A DNA stretch of 64,000 nt, from positions 159,653 through 223,652 of the forward strand of contig NZ_AOJE01000010.1 in NCBI RefSeq assembly GCF_000337915.1, read 5' to 3'. The position numbers were made by a program, and so were the translations under genes. Below, in pieces: positions 4,443 to 10,063 of the stretch. Positions within the stretch are counted from its first letter, which is position 1. Each line of letters opens with the position of its first letter. Below the pieces are notes generated by a model. That model was not told the DNA's origin. It did no database searches and saw only the letters and a program-made list of their open reading frames with translations. This DNA comes from Halorubrum saccharovorum DSM 1137. GTDB lineage: Archaea > Halobacteriota > Halobacteria > Halobacteriales > Haloferacaceae.

Positions 4443-4966
4443 CAGCCCGTCACGTCCACGTTGAGCTCGTCACGGAGCTCCTCGACGCGCTGGCCCATCG
4501 CCTCGCGGAGCCGGTCGTTGTCCATCGCCTCGACCGGGGAGCCGCACTCCGGGCACTCGAAGCCGAAGTCCATCGCCTCGCCGAACTCGAAGCGGATCGA
4601 ACACACCTCACAGAGGTAGAACTCGTGGGTGCGCTCGTACTCCTCGCGCTCCTCTAAGGCGTCGAGCAGGCGGTACATCTCCTCTTCGAGGTTCTCCGGG
4701 ATGTTGTCGTAGTGGAACGTCCAGAGGTACGTGAGCCATCCCGAGTCCTCGTCGCGCACCCGGCGGTAGGTGGCGAGGTCGTTCTCGTACAGGATGAACA
4801 GCGCGCGTCGGACGTCGTTGAGCTCCAGTCCGAGCTCCTCCGCCAGCTCCTCGTCGGTGACCTCGCCGTCCGGCGGCGCGGCCGCGACCGGCATCCCCGT
4901 CGGCCCCACCAGCTCGTGGAGGTACTTCTGGATGACGGGGTCGTTCAGTAGATCCTCAAAAGCCAT
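4442..4966 (-). CDS. tfe: Transcription initiation factor TFE (alpha subunit)
   Basis: The 174-residue protein is the archaeal homologue of TFIIE-alpha, which stabilises the open promoter complex with TBP, TFB and RNA polymerase. Residues 1-90 form the winged-helix domain (MAFEDLLNDPVIQKYLHELVG onward). Residues 119-141 are the zinc ribbon, with C119-x2-C122 and C138-x2-C141. The start at 4966 was chosen because family members begin with this MAFEDLL-type segment; the open frame extends further upstream without homology. It is the first gene of a tfe-DUF2110-lipoprotein run. Confidence 0.95.
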   Translation of the reverse strand: MAFEDLLNDPVIQKYLHELVGPTGMPVAAAPPDGEVTDEELAEELGLELNDVRRALFILYENDLATYRRVRDEDSGWLTYLWTFHYDNIPENLEEEMYRLLDALEEREEYERTHEFYLCEVCSIRFEFGEAMDFGFECPECGSPVEAMDNDRLREAMGQRVEELRDELNVDVTG

Positions 4967-5123
4967 TACGTGGATCTGGTGGAGGAACCGGGTTAAAAGC
5001 TCCGGAAGGAGCGGTCGCCGCCGTCCGCTGTCGCCGCCGGTCCGGTCAGTGCGATCCGCCGCCGGGACCGCCCGCGGCTGCCTCCGGCAAAGCTTTACCC
5101 CGCGTGTGACACGACAGGGTCGT

Positions 5124-6185
5124 ATGGCATCGACCGGTGACGCGGGAGACGGGTCGGATCCGGCGGCGGGATCTAGCGGCTCGAACGCCACGAACGCGTC
5201 CGCCACCACGAACGCGTCCACTCCCCCGGCGGCCGGAACGCGCGTCCGCCGAGCCGTCGGCGCGCTCGCCCTCCTCGCCGTCCCCGTCCTCCTCGCCGCC
5301 GTCCCGCTGGTCCCCGTCGCCGCCCTCCTCGGTCCCGCCGGCCTCGGCGTCATCGGCCCGGGCGCGATCGGCGGGCTCCTCGCCGCGGTCGTCGTCGGTC
5401 TCGGCGGGTCCGCCCTCCTCGGTCCGGTGGTCGTCGACCGCCGGATCGCCCGGCTCCCCGAGGCCGAACTTGACGACCGCCCCGCCGACTTCGTCGCCGA
5501 CCGCGTCGCGACCCTCGCGGACGAGGTCGGCGTCGACGCCCCCGAGGTGACGGTCGTCCGCGCGGACGCCGCCAACGTCGCCGTCGCCGACGGCTACCGC
5601 GGCTCGCGGCTCGTCGTCTCGACCCGCCTGCTCTCGCTGTCGAAGGCCGACCGCGACGCGGCGCTCCGGCACGCGCTCGTCCGGCTTCGGACCCGTGAGG
5701 CGCTCGTCTCGACGGCGCTGCTCCCGGCGCTCGGGGCCGTCGAGACGGTGGCGCTCCTCGCGACACTGCTCGTCGGGCGCCGCGGCGAGCGCACGGCGGC
5801 GGACCGCCGCGTCAACCGGATCCACGGGTACGAACCGGAGCGCGACCGGATCCCGTCGTGGGCGTACGCGGCCGCCGGGGTCGCGCTCTGGCTCCTGCTC
5901 CTACCGGCGTGGCTCCCGGCCGCCGTCGGCGACCGGCTCTACGTGGCCGGCGGGCGTCGGGACGCTGACGAGGCGGTCGCGCGGCTCGGGGCCGCCGAGC
6001 GCGACGGGCTCGGAAACGCGGTCGCGTTCGCCAGCGACGCCGCAGGTGCCGCCGACTGGCCGCCCCTCCTCGACCGGCTCTCCCTCGTCTCGATGGCGGA
6101 CGCCGAGACCGGTCGCGTGCGGGGGACGAGCCGGCAGGAGGCGCGGACCAGGCTCGCGCGGCTCCGATCGAAGCGGACGCTGTGA
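5124..6185 (+). CDS. M48/HtpX-like membrane protein without the zinc-binding motif
   Basis: The 353-residue protein has a low-complexity N-terminus, two hydrophobic segments (about 45-70 and 80-103), an M48-like domain, and another hydrophobic pair (about 196-215 and 249-275). The segment ANVAVADGYRGSRLVVSTRLL (150-170) is the HtpX strand pattern that normally precedes the catalytic helix. Where active members have HExxH, this protein has H183-A-L-V-R187, so the catalytic Glu and second His are gone. The distal ligand region reads GGRRDADEAVARL, without the usual Glu. I call it an inactive M48 paralogue that may have a regulatory or scaffold role. ATG 5124 is the first start after the promoter region. 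Confidence 0.75.
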   Translation: MASTGDAGDGSDPAAGSSGSNATNASATTNASTPPAAGTRVRRAVGALALLAVPVLLAAVPLVPVAALLGPAGLGVIGPGAIGGLLAAVVVGLGGSALLGPVVVDRRIARLPEAELDDRPADFVADRVATLADEVGVDAPEVTVVRADAANVAVADGYRGSRLVVSTRLLSLSKADRDAALRHALVRLRTREALVSTALLPALGAVETVALLATLLVGRRGERTAADRRVNRIHGYEPERDRIPSWAYAAAGVALWLLLLPAWLPAAVGDRLYVAGGRRDADEAVARLGAAERDGLGNAVAFASDAAGAADWPPLLDRLSLVSMADAETGRVRGTSRQEARTRLARLRSKRTL

Positions 6186-6266: not shown

Positions 6267-7751
6267 TCAGGAGCGGGCCGGGATCGTCATCCGGAGGAGC
6301 GTCCCGCCCGTCTCGGACGACTCCACCGAGAACTGCCCGCCCGCCTTGCTCACGACCCAGTACATCAGCCAGATCCCGAGTCGGTCCGCGTGCTTCAGCG
6401 ACGTCTCGCCCCGTTCGAGCACGTGGGTCTCGTGTTCCGGGATCCCCGGGCCGTCGTCTTCGATCTCGATCTCGATCCAGCCCTCGTCCCCGCGCTCGGC
6501 GCGTATCCAGACCGTCGGCTCCGGGTCGTCGTTGTGCTTGACCGCGTTCTCTACCCCCTCCTCGATCGCCGTCTGGAGGCCGAGCACGCTCACACCGAGG
6601 GAATCACCGTCGGGGAGCGAGAGGTGGAACGTGGCGTTCGGGTACTGATCGGTCATCTGACTCAGCAGCTCGGACAGGCGGTCGCGCAGTTCGACCGCGG
6701 TCTCGCCCGGATCCGTCTTCGAAAGCGTGTGGTCGATCTTCCGCACCGCCTCCGCGATCCGCATCAGGTCGTCGGTCGTCTCCGAGATCACGTCGAGCGA
6801 CTTCCGACGCTGCTCCTCGTCGGGATCGCTCCGCAGCAGCTCCGTGTACCCCTCGATGAGGTTCATCTTGTTCCGGAGGTTGTGGTTGAGCACCCGACTC
6901 ATGACCTCCAGCCGGCGCTCGCGGATCTTCCGGTCGGTGATGTCCGTCTGGAAGCCGACGAAGCGGATCACGTCGCCGGTCTCGTCGTGGATCGGCGCGA
7001 CGGTGAGCTGATTCCAGAACTTCTTGCCGTTCGCGCGGTAGTTCAGGATGTCGACGGAGACCGGCCGCTCGTCGTCGATCGCCTCGCGGATCGCCGCCGT
7101 CGTCGCGGGGTCCGTGTCCTCCCCTTGGAGGAGCCGACAGTCCTTCCCGAGCACCTCCGGTCCGTAGCCGGTGAGCCGCTCGAACTCCTCGTTGACGTAG
7201 GTCAGCGGGTTATTCCCCGTCCCCGGCTCCGCGAGGGCGATCCCCACCGGGGCCTCGTCCATCGCGCGCTCCTTCTGCCGGATCTCCTCGACAGCGGCCG
7301 CCAGCCGCTGCTCGCGGTCAGCGAGCCGGAGGGTGGTTCGCCGTCGCTCGACGAGGTTACCGATCCGGGTGCGGAGCGCCCGCTTGCGCACCGGGAGTTC
7401 GATGACGTCGTCGACGTGATCCCACGCCTCCTGCGTCGTCTCCCGGTCGGTGTCGCCGCCCGCGAGGAGGACGAACGGGAGGAATGCGGGCGCCGCGCGC
7501 TCCCGTCGCGACTCGATCGAGCCGGCGGCCCGCTCGAACCCCTCGTCGTCGCAGACGCAGCAGTCGAACCGCGAGTCGAGCGCCGCCGCGTCCGTCGTCG
7601 ACTCGACGCGGAAGCGGTCGCCGAGGGCTTCCGCCACGAGCTCGCGGTCGCGCCCCGACCGCATGAAAAGGAGGACGCGGACCTCCTCGTCCACGTCCGG
7701 CGGTCCGCCGAAGGGGGCGTCGGAAGCGATCCCCGCGGGGCCTGGAGCCAT
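6267..7751 (-). CDS. LOV-domain sensor histidine kinase with N-terminal receiver-like domain
   Basis: This is a 494-residue soluble kinase. Residues 23-135 resemble a response-regulator receiver fold. Residues 165-275 form a LOV-type PAS domain. The photoactive-cysteine motif reads GKDCRLLQ (C205, Q209; canonical GxNCRFLQ), and the flavin contacts N237 (ILNYR), N247 (FWN) and Q268 (FQTD) are all present. Residues 283-345 are the dimerisation/phospho-acceptor region (NHNLRN, H290), followed by an HATPase domain with EDDGPGIPEHE. Such a protein should bind FMN and respond to blue light, or be a redox-tuned derivative. It is divergent from the KaiC-like gene, 74 bases between starts. A 7-bp-arm hairpin lies directly before its ATG. 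Confidence 0.88.
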   Translation of the reverse strand: MAPGPAGIASDAPFGGPPDVDEEVRVLLFMRSGRDRELVAEALGDRFRVESTTDAAALDSRFDCCVCDDEGFERAAGSIESRRERAAPAFLPFVLLAGGDTDRETTQEAWDHVDDVIELPVRKRALRTRIGNLVERRRTTLRLADREQRLAAAVEEIRQKERAMDEAPVGIALAEPGTGNNPLTYVNEEFERLTGYGPEVLGKDCRLLQGEDTDPATTAAIREAIDDERPVSVDILNYRANGKKFWNQLTVAPIHDETGDVIRFVGFQTDITDRKIRERRLEVMSRVLNHNLRNKMNLIEGYTELLRSDPDEEQRRKSLDVISETTDDLMRIAEAVRKIDHTLSKTDPGETAVELRDRLSELLSQMTDQYPNATFHLSLPDGDSLGVSVLGLQTAIEEGVENAVKHNDDPEPTVWIRAERGDEGWIEIEIEDDGPGIPEHETHVLERGETSLKHADRLGIWLMYWVVSKAGGQFSVESSETGGTLLRMTIPARS

Positions 7752-7768
7752 GTCTCCTAAAAGGAGAC
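7752..7768. promoter_or_regulatory. Hairpin/operator candidate at the LOV kinase start
   Basis: A perfect inverted repeat, GTCTCCT-AAA-AGGAGAC, touches the start codon of the LOV kinase (ATG at 7751-7749, minus strand). On the mRNA the right arm includes AGGAG, a Shine-Dalgarno-like sequence, which would be sequestered in the stem. It could equally be a DNA operator in the 74-base divergent promoter. Confidence 0.4.
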
Positions 7769-7825
7769 CGTGTATCCACTAAGAGCTACCCATTGATTAA
7801 CTACCCCCCGTCCGGAGTAAACGGT

Positions 7826-9340
7826 ATGTCGACACCACTCGCCGATCGCGCCTCGACGGGTATCGCGGGGCTCGACGAGATACTGTCGGGCGGGCTCGTG
7901 CCGAACCGGAGCTACATGGTCCGCGGTCAGGCCGGCAGCGGAAAGACAATCCTGAGCTTCCACTTCCTCCAGCAGGGTGTCGACGAGGGGGAGACGGCGC
8001 TGTTCATCAACCTCGAAGAGGACGTCCGCGACCTGAAGGCCAACGCGGCGGCGCTCGGCTTCGACACCGACGCGATCGAGTTCCTCGACCTGAGCCCGAG
8101 CGCGGACGTGTTCGTCGAAGACGAGTCGTACGAGGTGTTCGAGCCAGCCGAGGTCGAGCGGGAGCCGCTGACCGAGAAGATCGTCGAGGGCGTCACCGCG
8201 GTCGACCCCGACCGAGTCGTGGTCGACCCCCTGACCCAGATCCGCTTCCTGCTGTCCGACGACTACCAGTTCCGGAAGCAGGTCGTCGGATTCATGCGTT
8301 TCCTGAAAGACCGGGAGGCGACGGTGCTGTTCACCGTCCAGAACACGCCGTCGCTGCCGACGGACGACCTCGAGTTCATCACGGACGGGACGATCCGGCT
8401 GGACGCCGCGGAGTACGGGAAGACCGTCCGCGTCCCGAAGTTCCGCGGGTCGGCGACGCAGGGTGGCGATCACGCCTACCGGGTCACCGACGCGGGCATC
8501 GAGGTGTACCCGGCGCTCCAGCCCGGCCAGCGCGACGAGGACATCGAGTTCGAACAGATATCGTCGGGGATCCCCGAGGTCGACGAGCTGCTCCACGGCG
8601 GGATCGAGCGCGGCACCGTCACCATCGTGAGCGGGCCGACCGGGGTCGGGAAGACGACCCTGAGTACGCAGTTCATGAAGGAGGCCGCGGGCCGGGGGGA
8701 ACGCTCCGTCATCTACCTGTTCGAGGAGAACCGGGAGACGTTCCTCACCCGGTCGCGGGCGGTCAACATCCCGGTCGACGAGATGCTGGAGCGCGGGACC
8801 CTGCAGGTGAACGAGGTGGAGGCGTTAGAGCGGTCGCCACAGGAGTTCGCGCGAATGGTCCGCGAGGAGGTGGAGGAGCGCGGCGCCGACATCGTGATGG
8901 TCGACGGGATCTCCGGGTACCGGCTGACGCTGCGCGGCGAGGAGGACATGATGCTCCAGCAGATGCACGCCCTCGGTCGCTACCTCAAGAACATGGGCGC
9001 GACCGGGATCTTCATCGACGAGACGCGGAACGTCACGGGGGAGTTCCACGCGACGATGGAGAACATCAGCTACCTCGCCGACAACATCGTCTTCCTCCGT
9101 CACCTCGAGGTCGAGGGCGAGCTCCGGAAGGCGATCGGCGTCCTCAAAAAGCGGACGAGCGACTTCGAGCGGACGATCCGCGAGTTCAAGATCACGGAAC
9201 ACGGGATCACCGTCGGCGAGCCGATGTCGGGACTCCGCGGCATTCTGAGCGGCACGCCGGAGGTCGTCGATCAGGAGCCGGATCGACGGTCGAATCGGGG
9301 ATCGAGGCGAGGGTCGAAGCGCGGCGACTGCGACGAGTAG
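7826..9340 (+). CDS. KaiC-like tandem RecA-domain ATPase
   Basis: The 504-residue protein has two KaiC/RecA domains. Domain I starts STGIAGLDEILSGGL and has Walker A GQAGSGKT at 34-41. Domain II starts SSGIPEVDELLHGGI and has Walker A GPTGVGKT at 270-277. The C-terminal part of domain II (GELRKAIGVLKKR, TIREFKITEHGI) matches clock KaiC closely. At the KaiC autophosphorylation pair (Ser-Thr in HIST), this protein reads NISY, so the Ser is kept and the Thr is Tyr. A charged Arg/Ser tail (about 480-504) follows. Haloarchaeal KaiC-like proteins act in light/dark or signalling responses. ATG 7826 was chosen over an upstream in-frame start at 7793 because it matches the family N-terminus and leaves a TATA-like GATTAAC about 26 bases upstream. 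Confidence 0.9.
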   Translation: MSTPLADRASTGIAGLDEILSGGLVPNRSYMVRGQAGSGKTILSFHFLQQGVDEGETALFINLEEDVRDLKANAAALGFDTDAIEFLDLSPSADVFVEDESYEVFEPAEVEREPLTEKIVEGVTAVDPDRVVVDPLTQIRFLLSDDYQFRKQVVGFMRFLKDREATVLFTVQNTPSLPTDDLEFITDGTIRLDAAEYGKTVRVPKFRGSATQGGDHAYRVTDAGIEVYPALQPGQRDEDIEFEQISSGIPEVDELLHGGIERGTVTIVSGPTGVGKTTLSTQFMKEAAGRGERSVIYLFEENRETFLTRSRAVNIPVDEMLERGTLQVNEVEALERSPQEFARMVREEVEERGADIVMVDGISGYRLTLRGEEDMMLQQMHALGRYLKNMGATGIFIDETRNVTGEFHATMENISYLADNIVFLRHLEVEGELRKAIGVLKKRTSDFERTIREFKITEHGITVGEPMSGLRGILSGTPEVVDQEPDRRSNRGSRRGSKRGDCDE

Positions 9341-9346
9341 GGGGAC

Positions 9347-10063
9347 TCAGTCGCGGTCGTCGGTTTCGGAGCCGCCCGCGCCGGATTCGGTGCCCTCGTC
9401 GTCTGCGGGTTCCGAACCTTCGCCGTCGTCTGCGGGTTCCGAACCTTCGCCGTCGTCTGCGAGCTCCTCCTCCGCGTCGATCACCGTCTTGCCGGTCGAC
9501 TCCGGTACCACCCGGCGGTCGGCGCCCTCCCATTCCCGTTCGAGTTCCGCGCCCTCGAACAGGCGGTCGAGGAAGACCGCGAGCCCCGCGACCTCGGAGT
9601 GCGGCTGGTTCGTCACGCCCACGTTGAAGTCGGCGCGTTCGTACAGCGCCCACGGCACCTTCTCGCCGCCGACGACGACGAGGAGGTCGCGGGGCGTCGC
9701 CGGTCCGTCGCCGACGGTCGCGGGGCCGTCGCCACCGCTTCCCGCCCCGCCGAGCCCGATCGACTCCCGAACCTCCTCCTCGACGTCCTGGACCCGCTCG
9801 CCGTACATCGTGAGATGGGCGACGACTCCGTCCCAGTTCCGGACGATCGCCTTCTGGTCGTCGCGCAACTCCACCGCGAAGGGACCGCCGAACCGGTCGG
9901 TGATGTCCCGCACCGTCTCCGCCGACTGCCCGGCGTTGTCGGGGAAGATCACCCGGTCGGCGCCGAGCGCCCGGGCCGTGAGCCCGACGTGCGTCGTCAT
10001 GCGGTCGTCGCGGCCCGGCCGGTGACCGTACCGGAGGACGACGACCTCGCGAGCATCGTGCAT
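9347..10063 (-). CDS. trm56: tRNA (cytidine-56-2'-O)-methyltransferase aTrm56
   Basis: This SPOUT-class methyltransferase makes 2'-O-methylcytidine at position 56 in the T-loop of archaeal tRNAs. The 238-residue protein has the family start [20 protein letters not shown], the segment AHLTMYG, and the C-terminal knot region ([17 protein letters not shown], then [17 protein letters not shown]). The last ~50 residues form an acidic low-complexity tail containing a nine-residue direct repeat (DDGEGSEPA) not needed for catalysis. It stands alone on the minus strand, convergent with the KaiC-like gene 6 bases away. Confidence 0.93.
9401..9454. repeat. Two perfect 27-bp tandem copies in trm56 tail
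   Basis: Two identical adjacent 27-bp units (9401-9427 and 9428-9454), followed by a partial third copy, encode the nine-residue repeat in the acidic tail of Trm56. The unit is a multiple of three, so the frame is kept. Confidence 0.9.

Follow-up and report, generated by a model that had tools for sequence, protein, structure and literature searches.

We examined a 64,000-nucleotide stretch of the genome of Halorubrum saccharovorum DSM 1137 (contig NZ_AOJE01000010.1, positions 159,653 to 223,652; hereafter the window, whose coordinates are used throughout). The subject of this report is a pair of adjoining genes within it that encode a histidine kinase with a LOV domain and a two-domain KaiC-family ATPase. 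The genes lie head-to-head, with 74 bp between the kinase ATG at 7751 (minus strand) and the KaiC ATG at 7826 (plus strand).

6267..7751, minus strand: LOV histidine kinase of 494 aa, arranged as pseudo-receiver, helical linker, LOV domain, HisKA-like H-box and HATPase
7302..7691, minus strand: N-terminal pseudo-receiver of the kinase, residues about 21-150 (alignment A2, AlphaFold (AF2) fold, receiver matches in the PDB)
7752..7825, no strand: intergenic region of 74 bp common to both genes, a putative divergent promoter
7826..9340, plus strand: two-domain KaiC-family ATPase of 504 aa (open reading frame (ORF), Pfam and NCBIfam)

Re-derivation of the ORFs, strands and spacing reproduced the layout given in an initial annotation of this DNA, which had placed the kinase start codon 74 bases from that of a KaiC-like ATPase on the opposite strand. 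Pfam assigns PAS_9 and HATPase_c to the kinase and a pair of KaiC domains to the ATPase, in agreement with the earlier description of the latter as a two-domain KaiC-like protein. For KaiC, the ATG at 7826 is a likelier start than the upstream TTG that opens a listed 515-aa ORF. Among named relatives of the kinase, the nearest is found in Halorubrum halophilum (88% identity).

Absent from the initial annotation was the N-terminal domain of the kinase, the part most specifically tied to KaiC. Residues about 21-150 had no Pfam match, and a profile built from 21 such domains (A2) resembles receivers, matching best the two receivers of PleD (E = 1.9e-13), of which the second scores higher. Searches of the PDB with the domain return receiver domains, and AF2 predicts a (beta-alpha)5 receiver fold for it at a predicted local distance difference test score (pLDDT) of 91.8. 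The residues expected of a phosphorylatable receiver are incomplete in A2: the acidic pair is missing, as is the conserved Lys that precedes Pro, and the Asp at the phosphorylation position is variable, being kept in part of the sequences. Since the domain has the receiver fold while lacking the acidic pair, the Lys and sometimes the Asp, we call it a pseudo-receiver. A KaiB-type, thioredoxin-fold N-terminus like that of SasA was considered and is ruled out by the (beta-alpha)5 fold. The genome of DSM 1137 contains about 40 kinase-like matches, yet only one protein, the LOV kinase, matches A2 at E <= 1e-3.

Conservation of the pair was assessed by applying fixed profiles to 145 haloarchaeal genomes, with up to 30 candidates scored per genome and the A2 profile seeded from KaiC-adjacent kinases. 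A pseudo-receiver was found within 2.5 kb of 106 of the 112 KaiC matches (within 500 bp for 105) and, reciprocally, 119 of 134 pseudo-receiver matches adjoin KaiC. Both were present in 95 genomes, KaiC alone in 1, the pseudo-receiver alone in 4 and neither in 45 (Fisher p = 1.3e-31, uncorrected for relatedness). Within the family Haloferacaceae, 105 of 148 genomes have orthologues or close paralogues of KaiC, and 60 have homologues of the kinase under a strict cut-off; a pseudo-receiver kinase lies within 1.2 kb of KaiC at 114 of the 115 loci fetched, a partly circular count because these loci had also served to iterate the profile. KaiC and the pseudo-receiver kinase form a conserved unit across the class. 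The kinase also has the makeup of the Nt_HK partners of KaiC: it stands beside kaiC, has a receiver-like N-terminus and is not accompanied by kaiB.

The initial annotation had allowed that the pairing might occur by chance and only in close relatives. Halorubrum by itself is uninformative on this point, since the surrounding genes are conserved too: the TFE gene, the gene at 4860-6182, Trm56, SAICAR synthetase and a PhoU-like gene form a wider syntenic block. That block is what could be expected if the two genes were chance neighbours retained through slow genome rearrangement. Against this, the pair survives with other flanks in other genera and families, across the class and in either orientation. 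The head-to-head LOV pair was found in Halorubrum, in genera g24 and g10, in one g6 genome and in a single genome from a different family. It is retained in g24, g10, G033, G165 (that other family) and L214, though no tested flanking gene is nearby there. The class-wide counts and the changed flanks rule out mere synteny, and leave chance adjacency a negligible probability. The end of the Trm56 gene adjoining KaiC encodes a tandem repeat of acidic character (GEGSEPADD; window about 9395-9470), and a locus recorded as Halobellus captivus ZY8 (L203) has Halorubrum-type sequence and synteny, so that the record is probably misnamed or recombined with Halorubrum.

Class-wide, 86 pairs are co-directional (KaiC then kinase) and 20 head-to-head; overlaps of 4 or 8 bp are frequent among the co-directional genes, as with translational coupling. 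In a FastTree phylogeny of 160 KaiC sequences, the deep branches of which are unsure, all head-to-head pairs from haloarchaea fall into a single group (39 rows, Shimodaira-Hasegawa support 99). This tree requires two changes of orientation, the second being in Acaryochloris, and 12 of LOV presence. The LOV Cys motif, called by sequence pattern plus inspection, is kept in 38 of the 39 members of the head-to-head clade. At the family level it is intact at 66 of 114 loci, comprising 33 of 35 head-to-head and 33 of 79 co-directional ones; the two head-to-head exceptions have a Cys to Phe change (L069) and a frameshifted kinase (L061). Outside the family the motif is intact in only 5 of 34 paired loci. 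The remaining paired kinases have a PAS domain whose Cys position holds Pro, or another or no recognized sensor. Given 2 changes of orientation against 12 of LOV, and sensors this varied, the core of the system is KaiC plus the pseudo-receiver kinase and LOV is exchangeable; to judge from the motif calls, LOV is a frequent sensor that is nearly fixed in the head-to-head clade. The light-input plus timer/effector module proposed in the initial annotation is supported in part: the two genes form a conserved unit, but LOV is one of several interchangeable sensors, so light input does not define it.

The intergenic region contains one element that is maintained throughout Halorubrum.

7777..7799: promoter core, CACTAAGnnyTAyCCATTTATAT-like, with CTTAGTG on the strand of the kinase and ATTTATAT (here ATTGATTA) on that of KaiC

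The core is recognizable in G033 and G165 and has diverged in g24 and g10. It can be read as two back-to-back TATA elements, which would make it a candidate promoter for both genes. Co-regulation from one divergent promoter, with the products acting in separate pathways, could by itself account for the 74-bp region common to both genes and for the upkeep of its core within the genus, and several genomes retain the kinase without KaiC, as separate pathways would permit. Most haloarchaeal pairs, however, are co-directional and often overlapping, so the two genes do not owe their association to a divergent promoter, and the pseudo-receiver is specific to KaiC-adjacent kinases; we consider co-regulation alone unlikely. 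Immediately before the kinase ATG lies a perfect 17-bp palindrome, GTCTCCTAAAAGGAGAC (window 7752-7768). It was set aside as an operator, since L039/L197 are the only other loci with an intact or nearly intact copy, which essentially limits it to this species and one close relative.

The sensor and catalytic parts of the kinase are located as follows.

6927..7259, minus strand: LOV domain, residues 165-275 (PAS_9 match, alignment to YtvA)
7137..7139, minus strand: codon of the photoactive-site Cys205 (GKDCRLLQ), invariant in the 15 kinases of alignment A3 and the 20 of A5
6882..6884, minus strand: codon of the phospho-acceptor His290 (LNHNLRNKMN), invariant in A3 and A5
6276..6584, minus strand: HATPase_c catalytic domain, residues 390-492 (Pfam)

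The complete LOV domain reported at residues 165-275 was confirmed against the YtvA part of the YF1 structure 4gcz (E = 9.7e-35), in which C205 is matched Cys-to-Cys and the flavin contacts N237, N247 and Q268 are matched as well. The kinase thus has what is expected of a LOV photoreceptor, namely the Cys in a GxNCRFLQ-like motif and the Asn, Asn and Gln. Its closest NCBIfam models are LOV kinases and the YtvA family, all under their cut-offs. HATPase_c scores 58 bits and HisKA 23.3 bits, slightly below its cut-off of 26.9, and the His box and the N and G boxes of a histidine kinase are present, with H290, N402 and D432/G434/G436 invariant in A5. The structure predicted for the full-length kinase has a low pLDDT (65).

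One alternative is that the LOV domain is no longer a light sensor and acts instead as a flavin redox sensor or a structural PAS domain. Consistent with this, many related kinases have non-LOV PAS domains, and one head-to-head kinase, L069 (G083), has a natural Cys to Phe change in its LOV motif (GRSFRFLQ); a LOV from Lake Diamante is also reported with Phe at the Cys site (PMC12202551). The near-universal Cys motif in the divergent clade argues otherwise, as does the conservation of LOV within Halorubrum, where it is the most conserved domain of the kinase (72% identity, compared with about 60% for the pseudo-receiver and 87% for KaiC). Moreover, a haloarchaeal LOV photocycle has been demonstrated (Valle et al., PMC12202551, 2025). 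Loss of light sensing therefore appears very unlikely.

Both RecA-like domains of a two-domain KaiC are present in the ATPase, and each contains the two Walker motifs, A and B, and a pair of catalytic Glu residues.

7847..8515, plus strand: KaiC CI domain, with Walker A GQAGSGKT, catalytic E64-E65 and Walker B D134, all invariant in alignment A1
8546..9280, plus strand: KaiC CII domain, with Walker A GPTGVGKT, E300-E301 and D360
9068..9073, plus strand: codons of S415-Y416 (NISYLAD), aligned to the cyanobacterial S431/T432 phosphosites and invariant in 17 representatives

Across the aligned KaiCs the Walker motifs, catalytic Glu residues and S-Y are invariant or nearly so. The protein scores below the circadian KaiC equivalogs (180 vs 546 bits for TIGR02655; 293 vs 408 bits for NF006799).

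Relatives of this KaiC are also encoded on plasmids of Rhizobium, Sphingomonas, Pacificitalea and Acaryochloris, each adjoining a kinase. On the Acaryochloris plasmid pMB01 (L160), KaiC is 47% identical to that of Halorubrum and its divergent kinase has an A2 pseudo-receiver without LOV, a similarity that suggests transfer between haloarchaea and cyanobacteria. The N-terminal domains of kaiC-adjacent kinases from three alphaproteobacterial examples were unmatched by the A2 model; profile comparison of A2 with the Rhizobium domain gave a weak match (probability 8%, and 11% against a true receiver). Outside the class Halobacteria, family f18 has pseudo-receiver matches at five loci (L238-L242, in G329, G349, G337, G305 and G300, respectively), of which 3 also have a KaiC match and 2 do not.

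From the adjacency, the integrity of the domains and the specificity of the pseudo-receiver observed above, we infer docking, light switching and a direction of signalling: the state of KaiC and light may jointly set the output of the kinase, in the manner of SasA and CikA, within one soluble signalling module. We regard the chances of this reading, the likeliest of those considered, as about even. Blue light would form an adduct between Cys205 and flavin mononucleotide in the LOV domain, and the helix that follows LOV would relay the signal to the His290/HATPase core, shifting kinase versus phosphatase activity. The pseudo-receiver would dock on the KaiC double ring, and the ATP-hydrolysis or phosphorylation state of KaiC (S415/Y416) would also set kinase activity; a precedent for such docking is the proposal that bacterial kinases with N-terminal domains adjoining kaiC are KaiC binders (PMC3164672). 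The kinase would then hand its phosphate to a response regulator whose gene lies elsewhere. On this view KaiC would supply a second input, slow or dependent on energy, which the light-sensing kinase would read without KaiB (no KaiA was seen). In other haloarchaea the KaiC-kinase core bears different sensors.

Several observations weigh against joint control of the kinase by KaiC and light. The pseudo-receiver is the fastest-changing domain of the kinase, which is not what one would expect of a surface bound tightly to a conserved protein. The Ser-Thr phosphosite pair is not found in CII, which has S-Y (Ser kept, Thr replaced by Tyr). No KaiB was detected in the genome of the strain or in 19 relatives, by a search whose control detects KaiB in S. 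elongatus. Finally, intact LOV kinases lack an adjacent KaiC in several genomes (G141, G062, G090, G116). A canonical KaiABC clock is ruled out by the missing KaiB and the scores under the circadian equivalog cut-offs and, with the S-Y sites added, the sequence gives no support to a circadian clock of the cyanobacterial type. A KaiB-independent archaeal KaiC timer or hourglass set directly by blue light seems rather improbable to us; in such a two-protein device the LOV kinase would serve as light input and as KaiC readout, and the pseudo-receiver would be a KaiC-docking domain common to haloarchaea and at least one cyanobacterium, Acaryochloris.

The losses take several forms. KaiC has been cleanly deleted between Trm56 and the kinase in G141, has left remnants beside the kinase in G090 and G116, both of which hold other KaiC copies, and has been lost along with the pseudo-receiver in G138. 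Among individual loci, L071, L072, L073, L074 and L075 keep the LOV kinase and have lost the adjacent KaiC by clean deletion, by deletion that includes the pseudo-receiver, or with remnants. In L053 (G100) and L044 (G136) KaiC is frameshifted, as is the kinase in L061 (G105) and apparently in L210 (Halorubrum salsamenti), the pair being otherwise kept. Some of these cases may be assembly errors, and the frameshifts may reflect sequencing errors or decay. The module is not essential, and the kinase can survive the loss of its adjacent KaiC.

The direction of signalling might also be the reverse, with the LOV kinase as input, the pseudo-receiver altering the KaiC oligomer or its ATPase, and KaiC as effector and archaeal signalling hub. 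KaiC-like ATPases have been proposed as such hubs (cited in PMC5847659); KaiC shows much greater conservation than the kinase, and the constancy of KaiC alongside varied sensors fits an effector that receives many inputs. A mere adaptor, however, would have no need of the intact H-box and ATP-binding domain of the kinase, and the survival of the kinase where KaiC is gone would be odd if KaiC were its sole target. We hold this reversal to be a real, if minor, possibility.

This pair is a good place to test for a light-set timer or switch in archaea. The partner kinase of haloarchaeal KaiC is now defined class-wide by a common domain, and one clade has a predicted built-in light switch; no such definition by a shared domain was found in the literature covered, which did not include the 2017 mBio paper on KaiC as a hub. 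With the same limit, no mention was found there of the LOV-KaiC combination, of its base rate across the class, of the pseudo-receiver that defines the partner or of a clade with head-to-head genes. Dependence on light and on KaiC can be tested with two proteins and a few point mutants in a cultivable genus, and natural controls exist in the Cys to Phe, KaiC-less and frameshifted relatives.

Among known systems, haloarchaeal LOV kinases from Lake Diamante such as ALovD-1 (Halonotius) combine LOV with receiver, PAS and GAF modules, although KaiC is absent from the text of that paper (PMC12202551). Bacterial LOV histidine kinases (the YF1 fusion and blue-light-activated kinases in the PDB) share the order of LOV then kinase core and the canonical flavin-site residues; the haloarchaeal kinase differs in its pseudo-receiver, its haloarchaeal-type HisKA-like H-box and its link to KaiC. 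Cyanobacterial KaiABC with SasA and CikA resembles the present pair in the KaiC double-ring ATPase, in having kinase partners and in the pseudo-receiver of CikA, which, like that of KaiA, functions in the clock (PMC12632262). The haloarchaeal system differs in having no KaiB, in S-Y for S-T and in a partner inferred from gene adjacency only. In Haloferax volcanii (Maniscalco et al., PMC3941300, 2014) cir (KaiC) transcripts respond to light/dark, and cirC, a two-domain haloarchaeal KaiC gene, adjoins a kinase gene, 'fixL', whose product is interpreted as an oxygen sensor, unlike ours, with its domains and its conservation elsewhere left aside in the passages covered. Bacterial pairs of kaiC and Nt_HK, with the receiver-like N-terminus noted, were described in 2011 together with a proposal of KaiC-binding kinases and an hourglass timer (PMC3164672). 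Rta_04330/Rta_04340 of Ramlibacter tataouinensis has a kaiC without kaiB and an adjoining kinase with a receiver-like N-terminus, S-Y type phosphosites occur in that group and the bacterial pair is cotranscribed; the differences are that those pairs are bacterial and co-directional (kaiC then kinase), with LOV unmentioned in the text. With kaiC-kinase pairs known since 2011 and cirC-'fixL' since 2014, the suggestion of a new kind of archaeal light-signalling unit is not supported: the head-to-head LOV pair is a LOV-bearing archaeal variant of the known kaiC-kinase pairing.

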